A stretch of 64,000 bases of DNA, taken from NCBI GenBank assembly GCA_004212155.1, contig RXIG01000028.1, forward strand, positions 32,812 through 96,811, given 5' to 3'. Position numbers and translations under genes: made by a program. Source of the stretch: an archaeon (GTDB lineage: Archaea; Methanobacteriota_B; Thermococci; Methanofastidiosales; NM3). Shown one piece after another: positions 3,747 through 58,441 of this stretch (the first letter of the stretch is position 1; each line of letters opens with the position of its first letter). Below the pieces are notes generated by a model. The model was not told the DNA's origin, did not search any database, and worked only from the letters and a program-made list of their open reading frames with translations.

Positions 3747-3851
3747 TTGGGTAAGAAACCGAGGAAATGGAAGAAAAAAGGAAAAATGAGGTGGAAACAC
3801 CTCAAAAAGAGAATGAGAAGAAAAAAGCGTAAAGCTAAGATGAGAAAATAA
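3747..3851 (+). CDS. rpl41e: 50S ribosomal protein L41e
   Basis: TTG-initiated (M)GKKPRKWKKKGKMRWKHLKKRMRRKKRKAKMRK*, matching the archaeal L41e pattern PRKWKKKGKMRWKWIKKR; GGTGAT SD at 3738-3743, 3 nt before the TTG. Confidence 0.8.
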   Translation: MGKKPRKWKKKGKMRWKHLKKRMRRKKRKAKMRK

Positions 3852-11799: not shown

Positions 11800-11877
11800 G
11801 GGACCGTGGGGTAGCTTGGTCCATCCTTTGGGGTTCGGGGCCTCAAGTCTCGCGTTCAAATCGCGACGGTCCCACCA
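11800..11877 (+). tRNA. tRNA-Pro (CGG), 3' CCA encoded
   Basis: GGGACCG/CGGTCCC acceptor; anticodon stem-loop TGGGG-TTCGGGG-CCTCA; T-arm TCGCG-TTCAAAT-CGCGA; CCA at 11875-11877. Confidence 0.9.
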
Positions 11878-19715: not shown

Positions 19716-19836
19716 GCCGGGGTGGCTTAGGCTGGTTATAGCGCTCGACTCATAAGTTAGTTGGCATTTGGATTCATGCGCTGATGTCTCGAGCTGAGAA
19801 ATCGAGAGGCCGCGGGTTCAAGTCCCGCCCCCGGCA
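19716..19836 (+). tRNA. Elongator-type tRNA-Met (CAU) with 46-nt intron (about 19755-19800)
   Basis: Acceptor GCCGGGG/CCCCGGC; anticodon stem CTCGA/TCGAG interrupted after position 37; T-arm GCGGG-TTCAAGT-CCCGC; mature length 75 nt. Confidence 0.9.
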
Positions 19837-46652: not shown

Positions 46653-46764
46653 CGCCGAGGTAGGGATTTGAACCCTAGCTGTGCGAGGCACAATCAGATT
46701 TCCCGTCAGCTTTCCCGGTTAGATCTCGAGTCTGACGCGTTTGACCTGGCTCTGCCACCTCGGC
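46653..46764 (-). tRNA. tRNA-Ser (CGA), type II, with 25-nt intron (about 46700-46724)
   Basis: Acceptor GCCGAGG/CCTCGGC, anticodon loop CTCGAGA interrupted after position 37, anticodon stem TCAGA/TCTGA, long variable arm GTGC..GCAC, T-arm TAGGG-TTCAAAT-CCCTA. Confidence 0.88.
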
Positions 46765-56950: not shown

Positions 56951-57043
56951 TATCGCTATAAAAAAACATAAATAATATCTTTTTATATAAATTAGTAATA
57001 TATATTATACAAATAGACAATAATAGTATACTAATAGGAAAAA

Positions 57044-57052
57044 TTTATATAT
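57044..57052 (+). promoter_or_regulatory. TATA box for the substrate-binding protein transcript
   Basis: GAAAAATTTATATAT; predicted start about 25 nt downstream coincides with the first leader hairpin. Confidence 0.5.
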
Positions 57053-57073
57053 CTGAACAGGGTAGTAGATTAT

Positions 57074-57194
57074 GGATCGACAGCGGCAGGTGAGAGAAAG
57101 CTCCCACCTCCTGTCGATTCAGAACGTACTTTAGAGGAATAGCCCCATGCTATCCGCTCTTTCAGGGGGGTCGTTCAATGATGAACGCTTCCTC
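57074..57194 (+). ncRNA. Candidate structured RNA leader / riboswitch-like element
   Basis: Hairpin GGATCGACAG (57074-57083)/CTGTCGATTC (57111-57120) with nested AGGTG/CACCT and GAG-AAAG-CTC; then GAGGAA (57134-57139)/TTCCTC (57189-57194) enclosing TAGC-CCCAT-GCTA and CGTTCA-ATGA-TGAACG; CCCC loop complementary to GGGGGG 57165-57170. Confidence 0.5.
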
Positions 57195-57235
57195 GTCTCA
57201 TAAAAAGGATATTTTCGTTTAAAAGGTGACAGAGC

Positions 57236-58441
57236 ATGAAAAAGAGATTTCAAGCCGTTTTTATCATCGTAGTGCTCTTTGGTATCCTGTGGTCAGGGTG
57301 CATAGGGGATGACGATGGATCGGAACCTACGGCACAACTCGTGTACATGTCAGGCTGTGGAAACATGCCGACAGCACTGAGCACGAATCAGATCGATGCC
57401 TACATCGCATGGCAACCGAATGCGGCCATCGCGGAGGTTGCTGATATAGGAAAGGTGATCACATATTCGCGCGACATGCCGCCTGAGGGCATGTGGCACA
57501 ATCACCCGTGTTGTGTCATTCATGCGCGGGAAGGGTTTATCGAGGACTACTACGACCTTGCAACATATCTCACCTCTCTCATGATCGTGGCAAGCGAGTA
57601 CGTGCAGGAGAATCCCGAAACGGCAGCTTACGACAGCGCTGAATGGATATTTGGGAACGGATCGCTCACCTTCGGTGACACGGAGGTCAGTTCGTATGAT
57701 GTGGAACTCGCATCCATTCCGACCATACAGTACACGACGGAACCGTCTGACGACTGGAAGGACGGGCTTGTGACCTTTGTCAGGTCGCTGGAAGACATCG
57801 AGATGGTGGATGGTGCCCTTAAAGGCTTGGATGAGCAAGCAATTCTGGATAAGCTGCTCCACAAAACGCTCTATGATGATGCCATAGCACTTCTCGAATC
57901 GGAGGCGTATCGGGACGCACAGGCACCATCCTCGATGCCCACTGTTAATCTTGGATACCTTGCTGCCGATGACCATGACGCCGCACTCTTTGTCGCTGCG
58001 TACGAATGGGAATACTTTCGGGACACATACGGCCTTTACTTGGAACCCATCAATCTCGGACCGCGCGGGACGTACTACCTCGTCGCGGGAGGGACGCGCG
58101 TGGCAAAGGTGAAAACGTTGGAGTTCAATGGTGGGTCTGCCCAGATGACGGCACTGAGCCAGGGCAGCGTTGATTTCGGTCTCGCTGGGGCTCCCCCCGC
58201 GATCCTCTTCATCGACAGCGAGGCCCCTGTAAAGATAATCTCTCCCCTCATGAAGGAGGGGTCTGGTGTCGTGGTCAAAACCGATGCCCCATATGACGAC
58301 TGGGACGGATTCGTGGAGTGGATCTATGAACAGCACGAGGCGGGAAAGACGGTAAAGATCGGCGTGCCGATGATCGGTGCTATACAGGATGTCATGATGA
58401 AGTTCGCCTTAAAGGAATCAGGGATTTCATACATCCTCTGA
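57236..58441 (+). CDS. Lipoprotein NMT1/THI5-type ABC substrate-binding protein with permuted lobe order
   Basis: Lipobox ILWSGC; C-lobe motifs first (GNMPTALSTNQIDAYIAWQPNAAIAEV...MWHNHPCCVIHAREGFIED), N-lobe motifs last (VNLGYLAADDHDAALFVAAYEWEYF...GSAQMTALSQGSVDFGLAGAPPAILFIDSEAPVKIISP...GAIQDVMMKFALKESGISYIL*). Confidence 0.8.
   Translation: MKKRFQAVFIIVVLFGILWSGCIGDDDGSEPTAQLVYMSGCGNMPTALSTNQIDAYIAWQPNAAIAEVADIGKVITYSRDMPPEGMWHNHPCCVIHAREGFIEDYYDLATYLTSLMIVASEYVQENPETAAYDSAEWIFGNGSLTFGDTEVSSYDVELASIPTIQYTTEPSDDWKDGLVTFVRSLEDIEMVDGALKGLDEQAILDKLLHKTLYDDAIALLESEAYRDAQAPSSMPTVNLGYLAADDHDAALFVAAYEWEYFRDTYGLYLEPINLGPRGTYYLVAGGTRVAKVKTLEFNGGSAQMTALSQGSVDFGLAGAPPAILFIDSEAPVKIISPLMKEGSGVVVKTDAPYDDWDGFVEWIYEQHEAGKTVKIGVPMIGAIQDVMMKFALKESGISYIL

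Follow-up and report, generated by a model that had tools for sequence, protein, structure and literature searches.

The sequence ahead of a substrate-binding-protein gene in the window (the whole 64-kb stretch of DNA that was analysed) is read here, with somewhat better than even confidence, as a lineage-specific, G+C-rich structured 5' untranslated region (5' UTR) of the mRNA of that gene. The predicted 5' UTR is about 160 nt long (57072-57235, + strand), its start being derived from a tRNA-calibrated spacing, and its G+C content is 0.48-0.53 across 57060-57209 versus 0.10-0.17 in the spacer immediately upstream. We infer that this leader is transcribed and that it may have an effect on stability or translation: its hairpins would most likely shield the 5' end, adjust how well ribosomes can reach the mRNA, or both, with no ligand being sensed. 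Nothing found points to a riboswitch function. A constitutive role is considered most likely, because folding revealed no arrangement hiding the Shine-Dalgarno (SD) sequence that was common to the window's own genome (G000, a Methanofastidiosia-like archaeon) and its sister species (G001), which provides the one comparison leader.

An archaeal BRE/TATA promoter element (GGAAAAATTTATATA, 57037-57051, + strand) is predicted ahead of the leader, with the TATA element TTTATATA (57044-57051) lying behind the purine-rich GGAAAAA. Elsewhere in this genome a near-identical box precedes a tRNA-Arg, whose mature 5' end lies 32 nt further downstream. By this spacing the leader would begin near 57072-57076, where the base of hairpin 1 lies. 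Hence, the claim of an earlier sequence-only reading that a TATA box sets transcription to begin at the base of a long hairpin is supported, the start being a predicted one. Similar A-rich plus TTTATA elements precede the orthologues of G001, G002 and G004 as well as both paralogues. Judged by these comparisons of sequence, the promoter prediction is sound, and the leader would most likely be transcribed from 57072-57076, with one hairpin at its 5' end and two more after it. In Thermococcus onnurineus, which belongs to the same class, 5' UTRs have a median length of 12 nt, and 84.6% of them span 0-50 nt (PMC5316973); thus a leader of 160 nt would be unusual.

All of the helices listed in the earlier reading, together with the G6 tract, the SD sequence and the AUG, are indeed present in the DNA. 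Hairpin 1 (57074-57120, + strand) has a 10-bp outer stem (57074-57083/57111-57120), which encloses a 5-bp AGGTG/CACCT stem and a GAG-AAAG-CTC tip. The candidate junction helix would pair GAGGAA (57134-57139) with TTCCTC (57189-57194). The sequences of two further hairpins, one with a 4-bp TAGC/GCTA stem and one with a 6-bp CGTTCA/TGAACG stem, are found in hairpin 2 (GGA.TAGC/GCTATCC, 57136-57155, + strand) and hairpin 3 (G tract, CGTTCA-ATGA-TGAACG and TTCCTC, 57165-57194, + strand), respectively. The minimum-energy fold and the consensus fold each pair the G tract within hairpin 3, and a pair check of G000 against G001 indicated that the candidate pseudoknot pairs could form in both species with one single change. 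The SD sequence AGGTGA of the downstream gene (57224-57229, + strand) is identical in the sister species, and the gene starts with the ATG at 57236.

The folding energy of the leader was -47.2 kcal/mol with a z of -3.5 to -3.6, and dinucleotide shuffles as good as the leader numbered 0/200 and 3/1000. The folding check that had been suggested thus found the leader to be more stable than shuffled sequence. As z <= -3.4 was reached by 12 of 1704 sampled stretches of the 64-kb window, the leader belongs to roughly the top 1% of the window, yet it is not unique; the leader of the sister species gave a z of -2.2. For the window sequence, the GAGGAA/TTCCTC helix had a probability of about 2% in the computed ensemble, and the fold containing it lies just 1.1 kcal/mol above the minimum.

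Covariation rests on two sequences separated by about 22 substitutions. A three-hairpin consensus fold of G000 and G001 contained 4 double changes, 5 single changes and 0 broken pairs. When the same substitutions were randomly placed on the window sequence, the consensus energy was matched in 11/1000 trials and the double changes in 14/1000, while column shuffles matched them in 0/1000 and 10/1000, respectively. On the sense strand the consensus-fold z was -5.4 and -5.8 (two runs, 30 shuffles each), and the leader ranked first of 352 windows in a 7.2-kb G000/G001 alignment by this measure. The own fold of G001 lost 3 of its 35 pairs in the window sequence versus 6.25 expected (P 0.047) and gained 4 double changes (P 0.0006), whereas the window's own minimum-energy fold lost 8 of 41 pairs in G001 versus 8.1 expected, which is the chance level. 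It should be further pointed out that two of the consensus double changes sit in the A/G run 57134-57139; under an equally plausible gapped alignment both disappear and the consensus energy becomes less favourable (-35.0 instead of -38.9 kcal/mol). The support for hairpin 2 is alignment-dependent. The proposed covariation check therefore had a divided outcome, with P of about 0.01 for the consensus fold and chance-level behaviour for the fold of the window itself. A fold shared across the two species is suggested by modest evidence, short of proof.

The hand-drawn fold of the earlier reading is for the most part lost in G001. The inner 5-bp stem and the GAG/CTC tip of hairpin 1 are kept in G001 with one double change, whereas neither the outer 10-bp stem (2 of 10 pairs broken, 0 double changes) nor the junction helix (2 of 6 pairs broken in register) is kept; a one-base shift would let 5 pairs of the latter form at a cost of 5.6 kcal/mol. 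The 4-bp and 6-bp hairpins, including the 16-nt core of hairpin 3, are invariant in G001, and such invariance is neutral as to pairing. A caution follows from this comparison, as a convincing hand-drawn fold of a single sequence lost several pairs in the sole relative and a different fold scored better.

The first inverted repeat may alternatively be viewed as a repressor operator in the DNA, located where transcription starts. It is long and lies directly at +1, a usual place of archaeal repressor operators. However, G001 differs at 5 of the 20 bases of the outer arms, with no change restoring symmetry, and the sense strand gives the stronger fold signal, the antisense strand reaching a consensus-fold z of -2.6 to -3.8. 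An operator is therefore regarded as highly improbable.

The identity of the leader between G000 and G001 is about 0.78-0.86, compared with 0.83 at fourfold sites and similar values in neighbouring spacers, and hence the sequence shows no sign of being constrained. This agreement argues for another explanation, in which the leader was inserted recently and drifts neutrally, and its folding derives from base composition plus one chance inverted repeat. Neutral drift would also account for the chance-rate breakage of the window's own fold in G001, for the 12 of 1704 stretches that fold as well, and for the absence of the leader before the other promoter-bearing orthologues and paralogues. It agrees poorly with the top consensus-fold score among the 352 aligned windows and with a consensus fold free of broken pairs; moreover, low G+C would be the expected result of drift in an AT-rich spacer, but the leader holds about 50% G+C. 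A neutral insertion is thus a possible but doubtful explanation, and the structured 5' UTR is kept as the preferred one.

The distribution of the leader was followed in the order (21 genomes, the window's own included) and in relatives, which are metagenome-assembled genomes labelled Methanomicrobia or Methanofastidiosia. Strong relatives of the protein encoded downstream were found in 5 of the 21 genomes of the order, two of which have a second copy. Among the genomes searched, G001 alone matched the leader at the DNA level (84% identity). At the orthologues in G002 and G004 and at two paralogues a similar promoter is followed by a leader that is short, whereas in G003 the orthologue lies inside an operon behind an ABC ATPase gene. 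A covariance model of the leader, run against 25 genomes, detected the window and G001 only and no second copy in the own genome. The invariant 16-nt hairpin CGTTCAATGATGAACG, searched with <=2 mismatches, occurs as one exact copy each in G000 and G001, with looser matches elsewhere, and phage records gave no match. On the best reading of these sequences, the leader would have arisen in the common ancestor of the two sister species, where it came to lie between the ribosome-binding site and the ancestral promoter, or would have been lost elsewhere.

The leader of the window gave no family match in Rfam 15 at the gathering score and chance matches only up to E <= 10, while the G001 leader gave no match up to E 10. 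The earlier statement that no known riboswitch consensus could be recognised is in agreement with this result; the riboswitch which that reading implied found no support. Control of the transporter protein by a riboswitch or another ligand-sensing leader would suit the position ahead of a solute-binding-protein gene and the multi-stem fold, and in the window sequence the small energy gap to the junction conformer would suit it as well. However, besides the lack of an Rfam family, the covariance model found no copy before other genes of the own genome and, among 24 relatives, G001 only; the leader is missing at promoter-bearing orthologues and paralogues; the junction helix is costly in G001; and no consistent effect on the SD sequence was seen. 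Furthermore, the letters of the leader drift nearly neutrally, whereas known riboswitch aptamers usually carry strongly conserved letters. We therefore consider a riboswitch very unlikely, and it is equally hard to credit that the leader is a new ligand- or protein-responsive RNA switch of one archaeal genus controlling a permuted sulfonate-type binding protein. Two other candidates, a C/D or H/ACA guide RNA and a k-turn leader, were set aside on inspection by eye alone. One C-box-like AUGAUGA is located at 57178-57184 with no D box seen downstream, and Rfam showed no guide-RNA match on the leader. No k-turn was recognised by this inspection.

Folding indicated that the SD sequence is partly paired in G000 and G001 alike, but its partners differ and no switch is common to the two. 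The window sequence allows a long-range pairing immediately ahead of the AUG; in G001 the partner is gone. Sequestration of the SD sequence by GCUCU/AGAGC was discarded as impossible in G001, and the anti-SD-like CACCUCC of hairpin 1 was discarded as not kept there.

The leader also contains two upstream ORFs on the + strand, namely ORF 1 (20 codons, 57072-57134), which is open in G001, and ORF 2 (18 codons, 57147-57203), which follows a GAGG motif. Translation of the transporter gene might be regulated by a leaderless 20-codon ORF and then a second short one. In line with this, the ATG at 57072 coincides with the predicted transcription start, ORF 1 has its start and stop codons in both species with no indels, and GAGG stands ahead of the ORF 2 ATG in both. 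Nevertheless, ORF 1 has a dN of 0.157 and a dS of 0.300, giving a dN/dS of about 0.5 versus 0.085 in the downstream gene, and its substitutions (2/5/4 by codon position) are not concentrated at third positions, so that it appears to be under little amino-acid constraint, none of it clear. A 20-codon frame is often open by chance, and ORF 2 is frame-shifted in G001, where its frame is lost. Control by upstream ORFs is thus improbable, and the structured 5' UTR is again preferred.

Compared with known systems, the leader resembles in outline long structured 5' UTRs of methanogens such as the mtaA/mtaC leaders, which stabilise transcripts in the cold; both are long leaders of archaeal mRNAs with predicted stem-loops (PMC5378194). 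The effect is experimental there, whereas the present leader is predicted and limited to two species. L7Ae/k-turn leaders are likewise structured archaeal 5' UTRs and can control translation (PMC5539422); here, by contrast, no k-turn was recognised by eye and the downstream gene is not l7ae. Like the riboswitch families of Rfam, the leader would be a structured RNA ahead of a metabolite or transport gene, but it has neither a family match nor a conserved sequence core. If the leader acts, one transporter gene would recently have come under post-transcriptional control in methanogen-related archaea, a group that is known here from metagenome-assembled genomes only.

The downstream gene (57236-58441, + strand) encodes, according to profile matches, a circularly permuted, lipoprotein-like substrate-binding protein of the NMT1/SsuA family. 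The end of the NMT1_2 profile matches near the protein start, and early SsuA profile positions match near the protein end. In this natural permutation the second half of the NMT1/SsuA fold stands first and its first half last. Alignment of the family f1 orthologues and paralogues demonstrated that the permutation is common to them, and the relatives of family f4 have both parts in a single ORF, arranged in the usual order; at the level of sequence the permutation is thus genuine. The profiles and the neighbours in related genomes suggest a sulfonate-type ligand, as a lead only. Adjoining the G002 orthologue, a 638-aa protein (L031:4502-6418) combines F420-dehydrogenase (FrhB) and sulfite-reductase domains, a pair as in F420-dependent sulfite reductase. 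The operon of the G004 relative (L033:74-4274) comprises the binding protein, a permease, an ATPase and a methanogenesis marker 2-like protein, with an HTH regulator on the opposite strand.

Several other features of the window were observed. A 21-codon ORF at 3788-3850 (+ strand), MRWKHLKKRMRRKKRKAKMRK, resembles by eye the tiny ribosomal protein eL41 and is without a Pfam match. A tRNA-Pro at 11800-11877 (+ strand) was called by ARAGORN and scored below the Rfam gathering score. Rfam tRNA matches of 121 and 112 bases at 19716-19836 (+ strand) and 46653-46764 (- strand), which are absent from the ARAGORN output, are probably intron-containing tRNAs.
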